From the NCBI GenBank assembly GCA_030063045.1, contig JAQSEB010000196.1, positions 124,001 to 188,000 on the forward strand: a stretch of DNA of 64,000 nt, written 5' to 3'. The notes beneath the pieces were generated by a model. The model was given only the letters and a program-made list of their open reading frames with translations. It was not told the DNA's origin and made no database searches. A program made the translations under genes and the position numbers. How positions within the stretch are numbered: position 1 is the stretch's first letter; each line of letters starts with the position of its first letter. The stretch comes from Pratylenchus scribneri (taxonomy: Eukaryota; Nematoda; Chromadorea; Rhabditida; Pratylenchidae). This document shows, in pieces, positions 1,667 to 64,000 of this stretch.

Positions 1667-3114
1667 TTTTGGCCAGGAAAATTAGTGAATTCAATGGAAA
1701 TGGTTTTGGAGGAGAAAGGTGGGGGGGGGGGGGGGGGGGGATAATTGATTTGGGTGGAACTAATTGTTGGCACATCATAAAAAGTGTCATTGAATGGGGC
1801 AATTCTAACAATGGGACCATGGATTGTTTTTTATAATGCCGAATTAATCCATTTGGACTAAAATAGGGAAAGTGGCCAACTCATTGATGGATAAAATGGC
1901 TTCCAGCGAAGATAGGCTGTGGCCCATTAGTGCCATTGGCTTTTCATCCAAAGCAAGTTTATTCGAGGACTATGGCCGAATGGGCACAAATGAATGAATT
2001 ATTTAAAGGACCCCCAAGAAAAGGGTGGATAAAGAATAGGAAGGAAGGAAATGGGGGAAGAAGCCAAAGGGGAAGGGACTGGATGGGGCACAAAAATTGG
2101 CGTAAATTTTGAAAAAGAGTCCAATGCGAAAGGGTTCAATGGCCCCCTTTCCCTCATTTGTGGTTCCTCTCGCCTCACTTTTTTGGGCTCAACCGGATTT
2201 CGGTTGGATTTTAGGCTGAAGAATTCACAAAAGAAAGGCCAAATTGACTGAAAAGAGGGTTAACGAACTATATAGAGAGGGAAAGAGGCATATGGAAAGG
2301 CACAAAATGACGCGCAATTATCGCCCAAGGGCAAACAAATCCCAAGGCTGGAAAAAACTTTTTTGAAAAGGGGAAGGAAAGAGGAAGGCGACAAAATGGT
2401 TGATGAGATTTGTGGATTCTAATATGTAGAGGGAGGTAAAATGGAGGAAAGAATGCCCGCGGGGGTTTATGTCAAAGTCAGTGGCCATTTTGGCCTATGG
2501 GAATGAGGGGAGGGGATAAAAGGGAAGGGTAGAATGGAGCCGGAAAGGATTAATCCAGGATTGGATGCCAAATGGATTGGAGGGGGAAGGGGGAAAGGGG
2601 GTGGAAACTGGAAACAGAAGAATAAGAGGCTGAAAGAAAAGGGGGAAAGGAAGGCTACGGCGAGAAGTGACTAATTGAGCACCGGACTTTTGTGGGGAGA
2701 GGGAAGCGACTTTGGCGGTGGCAGAGAAAAACTGTGTTTGTGGCCACAAAGCCAAGGATGCCGACGGCAGCTTCACTTCCATTCCATGCCTTCTTTTCGC
2801 TGCGCAATCCAATTAGTGTTTTTGGGGGAGAAGGAGGCACATTGGCCATGAGAATGGGCAAAAGCCCTTGGGAGCGATGTGGCCAACACCAACAGCAGCA
2901 GTTGTGGCAATATGGAAGAATAAAAAGACAAAAAGATGCACAATTCCTTCCAATTTTACATCACAATTTATGGGCCAAAAATGGCCTCCATTTCCTTGAT
3001 GAATTTTCCACACAAAAAATGGAGGATAAATATTCATGAAATTTTATGCATTTTTTGTTGGGAATAAATATTTCTTCTACAAAATTGTGAAAATATTTCA
3101 AAATTATTCATTCA
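1667..3114. other. intergenic stretch, no gene seen
   Basis: This lies upstream of the small membrane-protein gene and downstream of the LDLa/EGF receptor gene, both on the minus strand. It holds a 20-bp poly-G run at 1721-1740 and purine-rich, GGAAAGG-type sequence at 2000-2700. I see open frames on both strands but no splice-consistent or family-like coding sequence. Confidence 0.5.
1721..1740 (+). repeat. poly-G tract (20 G)
   Basis: Twenty consecutive guanines in an otherwise AT-rich region. Other G/C homopolymers of 11-17 bases lie at 11875-11891 (C), 21780-21795 (G), 36148-36159 (C), 36857-36867 (C) and 49173-49184 (C). Confidence 0.9.
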
Positions 3115-56700: not shown

Positions 56701-59306
56701 AGTTTAAAGCTTTTCAATTAAACTAAATATTAATATTGTAATGTTTTTAATCGCAAGAATGTCGTTTATTTATGATTTTGCTCGAGGAAAAGTAAAATCC
56801 AATACCCTTCTCTAGATTGAATGAATTGTAAAATCACATTCTATTTTCCAAAACATTTTAATTTAATTCCGCCTGGTCAACTTAGAATAATTCAGCCTGT
56901 TTTACTTAGAATAATTCCGCCTGGTTAGAATAATTCCGCCTGTTTTACTTAGAATAATTCCGCCTGTTTTACTTAGAATAATTCCGCCTGGTTAGAATAA
57001 TTCCGCCTGTTTTACTTAGAATAATTCCGCCTGGTTAGAATAATTCAGCCTGTTTTACTTAGAATAATTCCGCCTGTTTTACTTAGAATAATTCCGCCTG
57101 GTTAGAATAATTCCGCCTGTTTTACTTAGAATAATTCCGCCTGGTTAGAATAATTCCGCCTGTTTTACTTAGAATAATTCCGCCTGTTTTACTTAGAATA
57201 ATTCCGCCTGGTTAGAATAATTCCGCCTGTTTTACTTAGAATAATTCCGCCTGGTTAGAATAATTCAGCCTGTTTTACTTAGAATAATTCCGCCTGTTTT
57301 ACTTAGAATAATTCCGCCTGGTTAGAATAATTCCGCCTGTTTTACTTAGAATAATTCCGCCTGGTTAGAATAATTCCGCCTGTTTTACTTAGAATAATTC
57401 CGCCTGTTTTACTTAGAATAATTCCGCCTGGTTAGAATAATTCCGCCTGTTTTACTTAGAATAATTCCGCCTGGTTAGAATAATTCCGCCTGTTTTACTT
57501 AGAATAATTCCGCCTGTTTTACTTAGAATAATTCCGCCTGGTTAGAATAATTCCGCCTGTTTTACTTAGAATAATTCCGCCTGTTTTAATTCCGCCTCTG
57601 TCTATTTTTCCAAACATTTAATTCCGCCTTGTTTGAAGAACTATAAATTAATTCCGCCTGTCAGCTTTAAAATCAAATACGCCTAAATTCATATTAATGA
57701 TTTTAATTGTTTAAAATTATATCATATTTTTTTCCAAATTTCTCACCAAATTGTTCCAAACTTCGAATGGCTTCTTCGACGGCATCAACTGACTTTTCGC
57801 CGCCGGATGTTCGTCCTCCTTTCCTCTCCGTTGTTTGTCTTGGCACAAATTCAGTGAGGCGAAGGCAGGAGGCATTCAATGATGGATTAGACGTTGAATT
57901 CCTTGTAGGCACCATTCTCTGCTGCTTTTGATTGGAATCCCTTGAATCACTTTGTGCCGCCCTTTCCTCCTCCTCCTCTCCTTGATCACTTCCACTGCTT
58001 TGGCGTGAACGGACGCATGCTGGCAAAAGTGAGGAATGGCCCGAAATTGGACCATTCCCATTGCGTCGAGAAGGCCTCAATCGAAGAAGACTTTGACGAA
58101 GAGAAAGCAGGCTTGGCGATTTGGAACGAGGCATTTCAGTTGTGTTGGCCGATGATGAAGTGGATGTGGAAATGATAGAGCCAGAATCGTCGGAAACCGT
58201 CGCAGAACTCTCCCCAGAATATTGTTGTGATTTTGGATGATTATTGAGATGGGACATTGAGGATGCCACATTCAACCTTCGTTGGGCATCCTCCGCCAGC
58301 AAAATCGATGGTTCCGAATCGCGTCGAGGCAATTCTTGTTGGGGAAGGGCAAAGGCAGTTTGGGTTCGGCGAATTGGCAATTGGGATTGATTTGGTGTTG
58401 TTTGGGGGTTGTGATTTTTATTATTTTGGGTGGCAGGGAATGAAGTTGGCTTATTGGAGGTGGAATTGCGAGTGGCAGAAAGCAACGGAGCTGGAGGTGG
58501 TTTTTCATTTAGTGGACTGAAATGTGGACAAAATTAAGTGAATTCATTATTTTTTGTAATCTTTTGGGTTAATAGTAACTTATTATGATATTCTGATTCT
58601 ATTCGGATTCCCACTTTCAATGCCAACAATTCCTAAAACTTTTCCTATTTATCCTACTGTACCCCCACTTTTTCCTAATCACCCGCTGTCACTTTTTCAA
58701 TCAAATATTGCCCCAATCCACATTTATAAACCAGCCCTTTTTCTTCTCTTCTTGCTTTTTCCCTTACACTTTATTATCAAATTTTCCCGCACAATTAATA
58801 AATAATAATTTAAAAAAGTTTATTAGCCTTTAATCCCTATCCCATCCATTTTGGCCACTGGAGGACTTAGGCTTCTGGCGAAGGTCCGGGGCGGATCCTA
58901 AGCCCAGCAGCTCTTGCCCCAAACAAAATGTAACCCTAGGACTAATATTCACATATTTTTATTACAAATTTCAATCAATTCAATTCACCTTTTATTATTA
59001 TTATTATTGTTGTTGTTCAGCTCATTTGCATAAAGTGATGGAGTGGACAAAGCTCTAATAATTAATAAAAAGGAAATGAATACACAAATTAAATTCACTC
59101 ACGAATTCATGCCAATCCTCCTTCGAAATGGAATGGCCGAATATGGGCCACCTCCGGCGGTGGATTGTTTTTGTTCATTTTTGTCCTCCATTTTTTGTGT
59201 CCCAATTTCTTCCCTCGATTCCGAATTGGCAATCGGAATTGAATAAACGGTCACACTGGAGCCACCGCCCAATCCTCGATCCAATCTGCCACCGCCACCG
59301 CCATCT
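53703..59306 (-). CDS. Cas-family scaffold (p130Cas/BCAR1/NEDD9-like), 5' end not in view
   Basis: Cas proteins are focal-adhesion scaffolds downstream of integrin, FAK and Src. Exons on the minus strand: about 59306-59101, 58518-57747, 56641-56437, 56382-55860, 55814-55656, 55446-55318, 55273-54857, 54713-54470, 54303-54092 and two to the TAA at 53705-53703. Ser/Pro-rich N-terminal parts contain PPPDYS (near 55985). The helical serine-rich-domain region is matched by YTVEFALDELVESL and DALDQLVAILPQV. The C-terminal FAT-like domain is matched by a chain of motifs (REIFRLYEPQVDGHITAM, IEEFFSLVESNKEP, GHSLCGIIRVLSRDDA, then VQTMCQSVVSVSECANQL) at family positions and spacing. The N-terminal SH3 domain is not in this window. 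It should lie 5' of 59306, where a Bel/Pao element begins within ~0.4 kb. Few YxxP sites are seen, unlike vertebrate Cas. Assignment rests on by-eye alignment. Confidence 0.72.
56866..57660. repeat. 19/24-bp minisatellite with ~110-bp higher-order period
   Basis: About 35 units of TTAGAATAATTCCGCCTG, ending either in G (19 bp) or TTTTAC (24 bp). The two lengths alternate mostly as 24-24-19-24-19, a 110-bp higher-order repeat. A TTCAGCC variant recurs 220 bp apart (57041 and 57261). It lies within the intron between Cas-like exons 58518-57747 and 56641-56437. Relics occur at 15966-16011 and 51107-51180. Confidence 0.95.
58590..58945. repeat. dispersed ~300-bp element, copy 9
   Basis: In the first visible intron of the Cas-like gene, same orientation as copies 1 and 2: TATCCTACTGTACCCCC, AATCAAATATTGCCCCAATC, GCACAATTAATAAATAATAA, GGCTTCTGGCGAAGG, AACCCTAGGACTAA. 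Confidence 0.8.
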
Positions 59307-59639
59307 GTTTGGAGCAAAACTCCAAAATAAAAATTTAATTTTGATATTTTTGATTTTATTTTAATTAAATATATTTTTATTCATTCAATTTCCATTTAAT
59401 TTCAATTTTATTCATTTTAATTCTTTTATTCAATCAATCCCATCCACTTCCCTTCCAACCAAAGTTCACATTTCCTTTTTTACACAATTTCTCGCCAGCC
59501 AGCCAGCCGCCCCCATCCCATTCAATCAGCACCCCTTATTAGTTTTGTCCTTGGGATTGGAAGAGGGAAAATGGCAACATTTTCCCTCGCAAATAGAAAA
59601 CATCCATTTTTCTAACCTTGAGGGGGGCAAAAAAGTGGG

Positions 59640-60761
59640 GAGAAAAATTGAACAGTCATTCCACCATTTTGAGCAAAATTGCCTATCGGGCGAATATGAG
59701 AAAATTGTGAGGAAAAGGGAGCTGGCTGGGAAATTTATTACTTTTTATGTTTTAATTTCAATTTTAACCACTTTTACGTTTCCCCTAAGGCAAATTAATG
59801 TTGATTTGGGTAAATAAGGAATACGTCTATCGGACGTTTGAGTGAATTAATAAAGATTGAATTTGCCTTAGGGTGAAATTTATCAAAATATATATTTTAC
59901 CACTTTATCACTAATTCACAAATTTAATTTTACTTATTAATAATTTTGAATTTAACTCTTTTTCAAACGCCATTAGGGCAATCCAAACAATTATTAGAAA
60001 ATTATTTAAATGGTAAATTTGTGAATTAGTAGATAATACGATGAAATTTGGTTTACTGATTTTATATAAATTTATAATTGTCCACACTATTTTTGCTTTA
60101 ATGTTGAATGCCTTCTAAATTAATATCGCGATTTTGTATTTCCATTTCGGTTTAATTACCCAAGTTTGAGATTTTCATATAAATAAAATTTTGTGAACAA
60201 TCAATCAAATCAATTGGAATTTACTAAAATAAAATTTGGCAACTTTATTTGGGTAATTTTCCACTGGGCAAATTCGTGTTCGATCGTAGCGAAATCGGAA
60301 CACATTTTGCTTATTTGGCGACCCTTGTGCATTTGCGAACTTGCACAATCTTGCATCGATCCCCACCAGTGAAAAGCCAAGGCTCAGCTCAGACTCCTTG
60401 GACCTGGGTGCCCGATCAAAAGGTGCAAACTTGGTGTCCGATCCCCTCTTGTGAAAAGCCCAAGGCACGGCTCAGACTCCTTGGGACCTTGAGCCCGATC
60501 AAAAAGGACATTGATCAACACCGGATCAACAACTTCTGGTGGATAAATTTTTAAATTTTATAAAATTTTCTAATAATAATTGAAAAATTTTTTGCCAGTC
60601 TATCGGACAAAAGGCAATAAATTTTGTAAATTGAGAATAATCTAGCTTCCTATCGGGAAGTTTTTTGAGTTTTAATTAAATTTATATTTCTCATACAAAG
60701 TTCTTGTTCAATTATCGTTATTCCTATCGGGAATTAAAACGATTTGATTAAATTCGGGAAA
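59640..60761 (+). mobile_element. 5' LTR and leader of a Bel/Pao retrotransposon (approximate)
   Basis: The non-coding start of the element precedes its ORF. It holds an AATAAA signal near 59849, TGGCGACCC at 60316-60324 as a candidate primer-binding site, and an ~82-bp tandem duplication (60361-60442 and 60443-60510, both with GTGAAAAGCC and GGCTCAGACTCC). It also has five of the TATCG-loop hairpins. The LTR borders cannot be fixed because the 3' LTR is beyond the window. The left end could be anywhere from ~59.6 to ~59.85 kb. Confidence 0.5.
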
Positions 60762-63700
60762 ATGGTAACTGTAATAAAAGAAAGGATCAAACTCTTAAAA
60801 GTACTGGTCATTGAAATATTAGAGAGCCCAATACCAAATCTTACTTATCAGGACCTCGAAAATGACCCTAGAGCGACCAAAACGGAATGGGAAAGGGCAG
60901 AATTAGTGCTTCAAGATCTAGAAATGTACTTGCAAGAATATGAGGGTTCAAGAAAGGATTGGATGGGCTATTTATCGAAACAAAGTGAAGCGAATCGTGC
61001 GCTAGCAGACACGGAAATGAACACCTTTTTGGAGGAGAATGCACCTAATCTAAGAACGTTGCATAAGAAAATCAGAGATTTGAAAAAAGAATCAGCACAA
61101 TGGAGAGTTAACATTCAAGAATATGACAGAAACCAAAACAGAACAGCTTCAGGCCTGGATAATGATTCAACGCAAGGTCAACAAAATGAAATGTTTGAGG
61201 CAAATAAGAAAGCAATGGAAAAAATGGCCAGAGCATTCGAAAATCTCAGTCGACGATCAGCGGCACCAGCTGATGATCCCGATTTTGCTGCGCAAGGATC
61301 CAGCAAGAAAGGAGGAATAAATCTGCCGCCTATTAAGCTTCAGACATTCAAAGGAGGGAGAGACTGGGCTGAATTTTGGGATCAGTATCATGTTGGAATC
61401 CATAAAGATAATAGCCTATCGTCGGCTAGAAAGCTTATCTATCTCAAGACCCTTGTCGAGGGTGAACCGAAAGACTTGATCTATGGATTGTCGAATATTG
61501 ATAAGAATTATATGATTGCTGTGGAAATTCTTCAAAAGAAATATGGGAACAATGAAGCAAACATTCAGCAGCTGCATATGGACTTGGCCAATTTGAAACC
61601 ATCAACAACCTTTGCTGAAGATGTCAAGTTACAAATCGAGGCAGAAAAGATTATGAGACAGCTCGAATGCTACAAAGAAGATGTGAACAACCCTCAAGTG
61701 CTCATTGCTCTGCAAAATAAGGTGTCAAAACCGACATTAAGGAAAATTATGGAACTCAAAAAGTTAACTCCAGCTGATCAAAAGTGGGATACTAAGAAAT
61801 TTCGAAAAGCTCTGAATATAGTGATTCAGGATGAATCAGAAGTGGAACAAATTTACCGTCAAAAACATTCAATCATACGAAAAGAAAATCCAGCAGAAAA
61901 GAGTCATCGCAAAGAGCCTAAACTCCTATCGGGAGATCAAACAATGGCATTTGCGGCAGTGGGAAAACCATTTGAAAAGAAAGTTACAAGCGCAAATGAG
62001 AACAAAGGGAATTTCGTTGGAAGAAAAAGGGACAAATATTGTGTCCTATGCGAAGGTGGAAATCATTCGACAGCTGAATGCCGGAAGCATCCGAATATAA
62101 GAGCAAGATTAGAACAAGCAAAAAAGATGAAGTTGTGTGCAAGATGTTTTAGGAATGACCACAAATCGTGGCAATGCGTGAAAGTCTTTAGACCATGCTT
62201 CTGGTGCAAAGGAAGTAATCATATTAGCCCACTTTGCCCATCTAAATTCAAAACTGAAAAGGAAACTATCTCCACAGTTTTTGATGGGTATGAAAGTGAA
62301 GAAGAAGAGAAAGAAGAAAAAGCGGACGAAGAAGAATATGTTGATCAATATGATAGCGAAGAAGAAGAAAAACCAGAAGAGCAACCAGAAGAAGAAGAAG
62401 AAGAAGAAAAAGAAGAACAGGTTACAACTTCATTTGTGGCTTTGAAACCCAAACAAAAGATGCAAAGAATTTTGCAATGTGCTAAAGTCAAAATATTCAA
62501 TCCGAAGCGTCCAACAAAGACAAAAGAAGCTTATATAGTCTTCGATAATGGAAGCCAACGTTCATTTATTAGGGAAGACTTAGCCAAAAGTCTTAATTTA
62601 TCCAAATTGGAATCCATTCACTTAAACCTATCGGGTTTTATGGAATGTGATTTGGGAAATGTTCACACAAATGATACTCAATTTGGAGTTATGACTAAAT
62701 TTGGACCAATGCTAGTCGAAGGCACTCGCATGGAAAAAATTATTAAACCAGTCACGTATATTCCTATCGTGGAATCTGAATTAAATGAAGATGAATTGCT
62801 TATCCCTAAAGACATAGTCAAAACTGATATATTGATTGGAATTGACCAGATAAGAATGTTCGAAATCGTTGATCGGTATCAACTCCCAAGCGGGTTTTGG
62901 ATTTCTGACTCAAAAGTGGGACCATTTATCAGCGGAAAAGGCCAAACCAAAACAAAGGGAAGACAAATTGAGCAAATTGGAATTACTATTATGGCTAATG
63001 TTCTAGATATGGATGAGCAAGAAGAATTAAAGATTAACCTATCGGGTGAAAAACTGAAACAAATCGAGAATTTATGGTTTTCGAATGAGGAAATGGGTCT
63101 AAAAGATGTCGAAATTAATGATGAAGACATTTGGATTAAGCAGCTCAATATTCAAAGAGATGAGGAAGGAAGATATGCAATTTCTTTGCCCTACAATGAT
63201 CGAGCGAATGCACTTTTACCCAATTATGGTCTGGCTTATGGAAGACTGCTCTCAAATTTAAAACATATGAAGCAAAAACCAGAATTAATCCTGAAGATTG
63301 ATGAGATATTCAAAGAACAATTGAAGCTAGACATAATCGAAAAAGTGATAGACTGGAAACATTGGCAGGGAGTTTTGCATTACATTCCACATCAACCAGT
63401 GATTAGAGAAGATAAAGAAACCACGAAAGTCAGAAATGTCTCAGATGCAAGTGCAAAGGATAAGAATGGACTTTCGATTAATCAATGCTTGGAAAAAGGA
63501 CCTACTCAAATGAATGACATTTCAGGAATTCAACTTCGAAGTCGTTTACCTAAATACCTTATTTGTGCAGACATTGAAAAAGCATTTTTACAAATTCGGA
63601 TTAAAGAAGAAGATCGAGATGCATTACGATTTTTGTGGAAAGATAACCCTTTAGATGATCAGTCACCTATCGTGGTGTATCGATTTAAGGGAATGCCTTT

Positions 63701-64000
63701 TGGACTGATCAGTAGTCCAGCCTGCTTGAATACCATTCTGAGCCTGCATTTGGATCAACACGGATCAGAATTAGCAAAGCAGATCAAAAATAACATTTAT
63801 GTTGATGACATAACACAGGGAGAAGAAAATGAAGACAGAATTATCCCAGTTTGCAATGAAATGAAAGATATATTCAAGACAGCAATGATGAATCTACGAG
63901 GATTCTGCGTGAACCATCTCGAAGCTTATGAGAAAATTCCTGAAGAAGATAGAGCAAAGATGGAAGGAAGGAAAATTCTGGGAATAAGATGGGACCCAAA
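60762..64000 (+). CDS. Bel/Pao retrotransposon Gag-Pol polyprotein (truncated by window end)
   Basis: One uninterrupted frame from ATG 60762 to the window edge, over 1,079 codons. Order: a coiled-coil-rich N-terminus; a DUF1759-type capsid region at about residues 185-330 (LPPIKLQTFKGGRDWAEFWD, then KLIYLKTLVEGEP); three CCHC zinc knuckles (residues ~427-490: CVLCEGGNHSTAEC, CARCFRNDHKSWQC, CFWCKGSNHISPLC). A very acidic Glu-rich linker follows (~510-560). Next is a DUF1758-type aspartic protease with FDNGSQRSFI (~595, D-N-G where D-S/T-G is usual) and a reverse transcriptase. RT motifs include CADIEKAFLQI, RFKGMPFGL.SSP and the catalytic YVDD near 63800. RNase H and integrase would follow outside. 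The intact frame suggests a young, possibly active copy. It is oriented opposite to the Cas-like gene and lies just upstream of that gene's first visible exon. Confidence 0.95.
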   Translation, partial: MVTVIKERIKLLKVLVIEILESPIPNLTYQDLENDPRATKTEWERAELVLQDLEMYLQEYEGSRKDWMGYLSKQSEANRALADTEMNTFLEENAPNLRTLHKKIRDLKKESAQWRVNIQEYDRNQNRTASGLDNDSTQGQQNEMFEANKKAMEKMARAFENLSRRSAAPADDPDFAAQGSSKKGGINLPPIKLQTFKGGRDWAEFWDQYHVGIHKDNSLSSARKLIYLKTLVEGEPKDLIYGLSNIDKNYMIAVEILQKKYGNNEANIQQLHMDLANLKPSTTFAEDVKLQIEAEKIMRQLECYKEDVNNPQVLIALQNKVSKPTLRKIMELKKLTPADQKWDTKKFRKALNIVIQDESEVEQIYRQKHSIIRKENPAEKSHRKEPKLLSGDQTMAFAAVGKPFEKKVTSANENKGNFVGRKRDKYCVLCEGGNHSTAECRKHPNIRARLEQAKKMKLCARCFRNDHKSWQCVKVFRPCFWCKGSNHISPLCPSKFKTEKETISTVFDGYESEEEEKEEKADEEEYVDQYDSEEEEKPEEQPEEEEEEEKEEQVTTSFVALKPKQKMQRILQCAKVKIFNPKRPTKTKEAYIVFDNGSQRSFIREDLAKSLNLSKLESIHLNLSGFMECDLGNVHTNDTQFGVMTKFGPMLVEGTRMEKIIKPVTYIPIVESELNEDELLIPKDIVKTDILIGIDQIRMFEIVDRYQLPSGFWISDSKVGPFISGKGQTKTKGRQIEQIGITIMANVLDMDEQEELKINLSGEKLKQIENLWFSNEEMGLKDVEINDEDIWIKQLNIQRDEEGRYAISLPYNDRANALLPNYGLAYGRLLSNLKHMKQKPELILKIDEIFKEQLKLDIIEKVIDWKHWQGVLHYIPHQPVIREDKETTKVRNVSDASAKDKNGLSINQCLEKGPTQMNDISGIQLRSRLPKYLICADIEKAFLQIRIKEEDRDALRFLWKDNPLDDQSPIVVYRFKGMPFGLISSPACLNTILSLHLDQHGSELAKQIKNNIYVDDITQGEENEDRIIPVCNEMKDIFKTAMMNLRGFCVNHLEAYEKIPEEDRAKMEGRKILGIRWDP

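Follow-up and report, generated by a model that had tools for sequence, protein, structure and literature searches.

What keeps the pentanucleotide TATCG recurring as the loop of short hairpins along a nematode retroelement, on stems that differ from site to site? The question is raised by a 64,000-nucleotide stretch of the Pratylenchus scribneri genome (contig JAQSEB010000196.1; the whole stretch is called the window here), which runs into a Bel/Pao element with long terminal repeats (LTRs) that starts at window position 59306, exits the window within its reverse transcriptase and ends at position 8904 of L009, the adjoining next 10 kb on the same contig. This element (the TATCG element) and its sampled relatives carry hairpins that are enriched on the sense strand and particular to each family; their stems, mostly of 4-5 base pairs (bp), covary, and their loop is almost constant inside a family and differs between families.

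The initial annotation had listed eleven TATCG hairpins with their stems, and all of them are present where it placed them, on the plus strand. Within the LTR lie GCC/GGC plus a T-G pair (59680..59692) and ACGTC/GACGT (59823..59837), and within the leader GTC/GAC (60598..60608), CTTCC/GGAAG (60646..60660) and ATTCC/GGAAT (60720..60734). The coding ones comprise CTCC/GGAG (61923..61935), AAACC/GGTTT (62624..62638) and ACC/GGT (63037..63047), all read as LSG, ATTCC/GGAAT (62760..62775) and CACC/GGTG (63664..63677), both read as PIV and both with the loop TATCGT, and TAGCC/GGCTA (61412..61428), read as LSS; at this last site, listed under 61417, the stem had been described correctly and the loop size had not, the loop being 7 nucleotides (nt) long (TATCGTC). 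The motif is translated in all three frames (LSG/LSE, PIG/PIV and YR) and also occurs in the LTR and the leader, which places the signal in the nucleic acid. A search of Rfam 15 with window positions 59300-64000 returned no family and two weak snoRNA matches far below the gathering score.

Hairpins were called where a closing C preceded a loop of TATCG with 0-2 further bases (5, 6 or 7 nt) and at least three Watson-Crick pairs formed. By this rule the element outside its second LTR contains 28 hairpins on the sense strand and none on the opposite strand. On the plus strand of window positions 59306-64000, 11 of 15 TATCG words form C-TATCG hairpins (the words at 60124, 60713, 60973 and 63678 form none), as do 17 of 22 in L009:1-7896 (the last up to L009:7896), and on the opposite strand such a stem accompanies 0 of 1 and 0 of 3 TATCG words, respectively. 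The codon-preserving shuffles proposed in the initial annotation as a check do not reproduce these counts: in 1000 shuffles, with loops of 5 or 6 nt counted, the coding part in the window gave a mean of 0.09 hairpins (maximum 2) against 5 observed, and the coding continuation in L009 a mean of 0.34 (maximum 3) against 17, which rules out chance, composition and codon bias as the source of the hairpins. Among the perfect hairpins of both pieces with a stem of at least 4 and a 5-nt loop, TATCG is the loop in 19 of 95 and the next commonest loop occurs 3 times, and the word CTATCGG is seen 26 times against 0.2 expected from dinucleotides. The remaining 59.3 kb of the window holds no hairpin with a stem of at least 4 and a 5-nt TATCG loop, and CTATCG is rare there, as had been noted, with 5 words on either strand.

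Pairing was tested over all 31 CTATCG sites, every site being scored with a 5-nt loop and three of them (L009:4510, 5801 and 6064) having fewer than three pairs. At stem positions 2, 3, 4 and 5 pairs are formed at 28, 26, 22 and 15 sites, against column-based expectations of 17.1, 8.4, 10.0 and 9.3, and at positions 6, 7 and 8 there is no excess (5, 9 and 10 against 7.5, 8.2 and 10.3). Since column pairing is found at positions 2-5 and not beyond, the selected object is a stem of 4-5 bp, free in sequence, on a fixed loop. Descent of the hairpins as copies of one inserted hairpin is ruled out, as the stems differ. When folded in a context of 120 nt, 11 of the 21 hairpins with a stem of at least 4 are mostly formed.

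Two near copies of the element (L049 on C190 and L051 on C188), each ~95% identical to it, retain the hairpins, so that the loss of the motif from close relatives, which the initial annotation had named as grounds for doubt, was not seen. Changed bases amount to 8 of 394 within hairpins against 410 of 9526 elsewhere in L049, and to 1 of 214 against 269 of 6280 in L051. Synonymous changes between the element and its near copies number 0 of 155 inside hairpins and 432 of 4521 outside, a sum of four overlapping, non-independent comparisons with single p values of 0.1, 0.0085, 0.065 and 0.11, and between two members of another loop family, L066 and L067, they number 4 of 69 inside and 282 of 1104 outside (p 6.5e-5). 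Two of three family comparisons thus show higher conservation in the hairpins than around them. Site L009:4510, with one pair only, is lost in L049, where the loop of L009 site 276 is also changed. The stem covariation that had been expected holds mainly between the sites of one element and is thin between near copies, which are too alike.

The nearest diverged piece, L055 (on C131), is a NADAR-nucleotidyltransferase-env piece whose nucleotidyltransferase is 60% identical to that of the TATCG element. It contains no TATCG hairpin, and the hairpins that it does contain were missed by the general detector. Its six sense-strand TTTCG words include three with a Watson-Crick stem of at least 3, one with a five-pair stem containing G-U pairs and two with no stem; three such stems compare with 0.044 expected, a number reached by 0 of 500 shuffles. 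Three of the four TTTCG hairpins are found at places homologous to TATCG sites of L009. The one at 1999 aligns with L009 4619 in one piece and with 4703 in the other, three linker hairpins of the TATCG element corresponding to one in L055 with the closing C-G pair changed to T-A, the one at 2740 aligns with L009 5459, and the one at 3082, with the G-U pairs, aligns with L009 5801, itself weak in the TATCG element, while the hairpin at 2332 is unique to L055. Hairpins therefore persist in this piece at homologous places with a changed loop, and because the loop has changed alike at the shared sites and the hairpins have been kept, the pattern fits co-evolution with one reader. The upstream part of L055 is a minisatellite, with a frame reading IMASCIHIFSRTKNTLPPKF-like repeats, beside the NADAR-nucleotidyltransferase piece.

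More distant families carry other loops. A Peptidase_A17 search, in which 150 of 263 candidates were scored, was complemented by NADAR and nucleotidyltransferase searches, through which diverged Bel/Pao elements were reached. One of them, L064 (on C45; 38% identity to the TATCG element in the A17-integrase piece), has 50 hairpins in 9 kb with an ATCN loop closed mostly by an A-T or T-A pair, against 3.14 in codon-preserving shuffles (maximum 9, n=300) and 1 on the other strand. In L065, L066 and L067 the loop is CTTTGN or CTTTGNN (25 hairpins with a stem of at least 4 are listed in L066), and in L068 and L069 it is of the GTTNGN type, with 14 and 9 hairpins found by the general detector. Codon-preserving shuffles gave 0.31 against 16 observed in L066, 0.15 against 11 in L067 and 0.57 against 15 in L068, none of the three having a same-loop hairpin on the other strand. 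Hairpin sites coincide between distant families at 0-1 places per pair, which is to be expected if number and loop matter and place does not. In the middle region of the TATCG element (L009:2600-3799), which has no Pfam match above the cut-off, one stretch looks by eye like a degenerate SGNH/GDSL hydrolase; a stretch like it is present in L068, where an arginine-rich linker follows.

A group of elements encoding SF1 helicases, partly with NADAR and G-patch open reading frames (ORFs), has the loop YGCG (L052-L054 and L070-L073). L052, with its NADAR and G-patch ORFs, has 8 such hairpins in 3447 bases and L053 has 7 in 3465, each with 1 on the other strand, and the TGCG count in L052/L053 was reached by 0 of 50 shuffles; weaker pieces have, on the sense and other strand, 3 and 3 (L070), 6 and 3 (L071), 2 and 1 (L072) and 5 and 4 (L073), CGCG counting on both strands in these tallies. 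There are 88 copies of the word CTCTGCGGAG, compared with 41 of its reversed form, with same-strand clusters at C36, C37, C38, C75, C137, C145 and C150; an AAA_12 (SF1) helicase match is found at all seven clusters and NADAR at C75, C137 and C145. L073 (on C150) has a retroviral-type protease and an integrase, which we read as of the Ty3/Gypsy kind; that this pol and the helicase belong to one element is suggested by their neighbourhood on C150.

How these hairpins act can be approached through what they have in common. The initial annotation had suggested multi-site recognition of a fixed loop on variable self-complementary stems, a suggestion strengthened by the stem pairing, the use of three frames, the restriction to a single strand, the conservation between near copies and the related families with other loops. 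The captured NADAR and nucleotidyltransferase domains and the further loop classes, which lay outside the sequence behind that annotation, broaden the range of conceivable explanations. We postulate, with a probability of about one half, that the hairpins serve as dispersed RNA docking sites for a co-evolving protein of the element, with packaging as the likeliest purpose. The loop would set the specificity and the stem would merely present it, the reader would most simply be encoded by the element itself, and each element could in this way tell its RNA apart from the transcripts of its many relatives. The most probable use would be multi-site nucleation of a ribonucleoprotein or virus-like particle, the hairpins acting as dispersed packaging signals read by Gag/nucleocapsid; both the packaging role and this binding are predictions from sequence. 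Ribonucleoprotein assembly fits best because of the number of hairpins (28, and 50 in 9 kb of L064) and their indifference to position.

Several observations weigh against such docking sites. If Gag read the signal, one might look for it throughout Bel/Pao, yet no convincing repeated loop is seen in 31 loci outside the hairpin clade, the power of the scan being partial. These are thirty ~3.5-kb slices (L019-L048) and a 10-kb stretch (L050) of another Bel/Pao element, which has a phlebovirus-type glycoprotein and no nucleotidyltransferase; all were scanned with five shuffles each, and 17 of the 30 slices and L050 were rescanned with two further detectors. On slices of equal size one of these detectors missed the TATCG family in L049 and L051 and detected L064, L065, L066, L068 and L069, and the other found L049 borderline (reached by 4 of 30 shuffles) and L051 clear (0 of 30). 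Low values among the negative loci were obtained for L021 and L048 (2 of 20 shuffles each) and the second half of L050 (1 of 30), and L035, of another Bel/Pao family, has four TGGA tetraloops in 3.5 kb (reached by 0 of 20 shuffles), which may be a weak further loop class or chance. In addition, conservation in the third family comparison, L068/L069, is not significant (2 of 78 against 47 of 776, p 0.31), and of the six changed pairs between L066 and L067 two double changes and one single change keep pairing and three break it, with 73 pairs unchanged. Hairpins with other loops and like GC content fold about equally well, with no clear advantage for TATCG (0.60 against 0.66 for other loops at 5-6 GC of 8, and 0.48 against 0.34 at 3-4), and GU mismatches, whose excess over AC mismatches would point to the RNA strand, exceed them by only 16 to 8, two related loci both being counted, which is not decisive.

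The strongest rival, on account of the captured RNA enzymes, holds that the hairpins bring these enzymes (nucleotidyltransferase, NADAR, helicase, G-patch) to the RNA of their own element, where they might, for instance, tail its 3' end, stabilise it or repair modified bases. The cis code would be unchanged, an accessory protein taking the place of Gag as its reader, and we consider this rival possible though rather doubtful. A nucleotidyltransferase is present in the elements of all four Bel/Pao loop classes that were sampled at length and in that of the TTTCG piece, and a tree built from 39 protein pieces has a branch, supported at 100/100, that separates the eight rows with hairpins from the 31 without (L069 was too short to be included, and L055 does not cover the region used); the nucleotidyltransferase match closest to any negative locus is ~28 kb off (C206). 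The YGCG group adds an SF1 helicase at 7 of 7 clusters, NADAR at 3 of 7 and a G-patch in L052. Yet the tie is partly one of ascertainment, because the other loop classes were reached via enzyme matches, one clade amounts to one evolutionary event, and ~30 sites per RNA seem more than recruitment needs. A precedent exists in the CNGGN pentaloop hairpins of hepatitis B virus (HBV) and human cytomegalovirus (HCMV), which recruit TENT4 via ZCCHC14, although the HBV loop is read by this separate adaptor and not by the enzyme (PMC11055085).

A host RNA-binding protein, acting in export, translation, stability or escape from silencing, is an unlikely reader. Short hairpins with a fixed loop are typical of host-protein sites, UGCG would belong with the stable UNCG tetraloops, and TATCG could, we presume, be a variant of one. 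Against this, one loop would be expected for one host protein and there are at least five in this genome, and no such hairpin is present in the rest of the window (59.3 kb). Still less probable is a role at the DNA level, as sites for a DNA-binding protein or as hairpins of single-stranded cDNA in reverse transcription or integration: CCTATCGGG does occur in satellites and palindromes of the genome as well, but a double-stranded DNA site needs neither stem covariation nor strict orientation, an objection that does not touch single-stranded plus-sense cDNA. That a protein motif such as a Leu-Ser-Gly protease site makes the repeat is very hard to maintain, for although LSG/LSE is the commonest reading, all three frames and the non-coding LTR and leader are used, the stems are paired and conservation extends to synonymous sites; we rejected a protein-level motif on the evidence of frames and synonymous conservation. 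Chance or composition is practically negligible as an explanation, being contradicted by the shuffle counts in the TATCG element and the other families.

A wider form of the docking-site proposal, which we offer tentatively, is a private RNA loop code, in which several retroelement lineages of one genome would each have their own loop and a co-evolving reader that brings along the captured enzymes, switching of the loop giving rise to families that do not cross-react. As the lineages would be Bel/Pao and the helicase-bearing group with its Ty3/Gypsy-type member, such a code might possibly amount to a self/non-self identity system for retroelement RNA. If true, this would reveal a way in which related elements sharing a cell could escape uptake of one another's RNA, and it could link captured RNA enzymes to a cis code. 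The hairpin pattern is so strict that it can be recognised by eye, it extends over coding as well as non-coding sequence, and since related elements supply natural loop variants, its specificity is directly testable (the expectation being own loop bound, neighbour's not).

To our knowledge, a fixed loop per family, loop switching and a tie to captured enzymes are new, and the nearest known kind is the dispersed packaging signal. Packaging guided by dispersed stem-loops is debated because such signals tend to be weak and degenerate. MS2, picornaviruses and HBV have many genome-wide stem-loops with a shared short motif and variable stems (PMC6281560). The Bel/Pao element shares with these many genomic-strand stem-loops with a common motif, whereas its loop is near-invariant, its stems are short and mostly perfect and its loop is switched in relatives. 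Retroviral Psi is confined to a structured region close to the 5' end, whereas the hairpins of the Bel/Pao element are spread across the whole element. What the two would share is a cis RNA element that selects genomic RNA (mouse mammary tumour virus, PMC8096270). The SL-alpha of the HBV post-transcriptional regulatory element and HCMV RNA2.7 likewise combine a short pentaloop hairpin in viral RNA with a terminal nucleotidyltransferase, whereas here the loop is TATCG, there are ~30 sites and the enzyme is encoded by the element itself (PMC11055085); the loops found (TATCG, TTTCG, ATCN, CTTTGN, GTTNGN and YGCG) are not of the CNGGN form. Capture of NADAR by a retroelement, where it is thought to act on RNA, has been described for Ectocarpus Gypsy elements and oyster Tx1 long interspersed nuclear elements, which are other element groups, and the word hairpin is absent from that paper's main text (PMC12477816); NADAR enzymes reverse guanine ADP-ribosylation (PMC11125620). 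In open-licence PubMed Central literature, represented mostly by titles and the starts of abstracts, no description of such hairpins in Bel/Pao was found, and no paper there combined 'BEL-Pao' with 'packaging signal'.

The element itself is a Bel/Pao member, given its LTRs with a target-site duplication and its Gag/Pol order with the Pao peptidase A17. The 5' LTR (59306..60313, plus strand, 1008 bp) is identical to the 3' LTR at L009:7897-8904 (blastn 100% over 1008), and this identity, together with the 5-bp duplication CCATC flanking both ends, shows that the insertion is recent. In the leader between LTR and ATG (60314..60761, plus strand), TGGCGACCC starts two bases past the LTR and resembles what we take to be a tRNA primer-binding site; Bel/Pao elements are described as having an 18-nt primer-binding site for tRNA-Arg or tRNA-Gly. 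The leader also contains two 50-nt direct repeats (60372-60421 and 60455-60504) that are 80% alike.

A long ORF for gag, protease and reverse transcriptase starts on the plus strand at 60762..64000 and continues at L009:2-7831, the open frame reported for this place being 3697 amino acids (aa) long; its L009 part holds Peptidase_A17, integrase, the middle region, NADAR, nucleotidyltransferase and an env-like tail. Piece-by-piece Pfam searches gave, in order, DUF1759, which occurs in Bel/Pao gag (61359..61763, plus strand, E 1.1e-18), DUF1758, a putative peptidase (62493..62951, plus strand, E 4.9e-07), RVT_1 (63513..63890, plus strand, E 1.7e-11), Peptidase_A17, Integrase_H2C2, DUF5641, NADAR (E 3.1e-35) and an MTPAP-like terminal nucleotidyltransferase (E 8e-18), the last two domains spanning L009:4121-5608. 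Integrase_H2C2 is barely above the cut-off, rve is below it, RNase H had no family match of its own in these pieces and the env-like tail has a sub-threshold match only; three CX2CX4HX4C zinc knuckles were recognised by eye in the translation of 62040..62241 (plus strand). Belpaoviridae share with the element the LTRs, the order of gag, protease, reverse transcriptase, A17 and integrase and an env-like tail, whereas the element adds NADAR and nucleotidyltransferase and measures ~13.6 kb from LTR to LTR, by coordinates, outside the family's range of 4.2-10 kb, and the family profile is silent on such hairpins (PMC8742986); we take that range as a description of known members and not as a criterion of descent. 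Protein searches returned 8 matches at 28-35% identity, the named ones from the nematode Aphelenchoides avenae, a beetle and a pseudoscorpion; NADAR and nucleotidyltransferase occurred together in 0 of the 5 matches of one search, and no relative was found among the viral contigs searched.

Further long-ORF SF1 helicases (1044-1193 aa) lie on C16, C23, C1, C19, C181, C216, C107 and C165 and could be more hairpin-bearing families, and 41 SL1-like matches were noted in the host genome, every one below the gathering score, a result suggestive of a nematode. Genome-wide, CCTATCGGG occurs 1148 times against 362 for the reversed word, an excess due in part to L001-L008 and L013-L018, which were set aside as tandem arrays, palindromes or single words in other context. 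The arrays at L013, L014, L015, L017 and L018 (period 31-63) have CCTATCGGG or the complementary word next to words resembling AAAATTTT, contain no element-type hairpin stem save in L017 (3 pairs) and are unrelated to the Bel/Pao element. L004, L006 and L008 are palindromes with a stem of ~19 bp that varies by copy, with mismatches in L004 and L006, and their loop is also TATCG.

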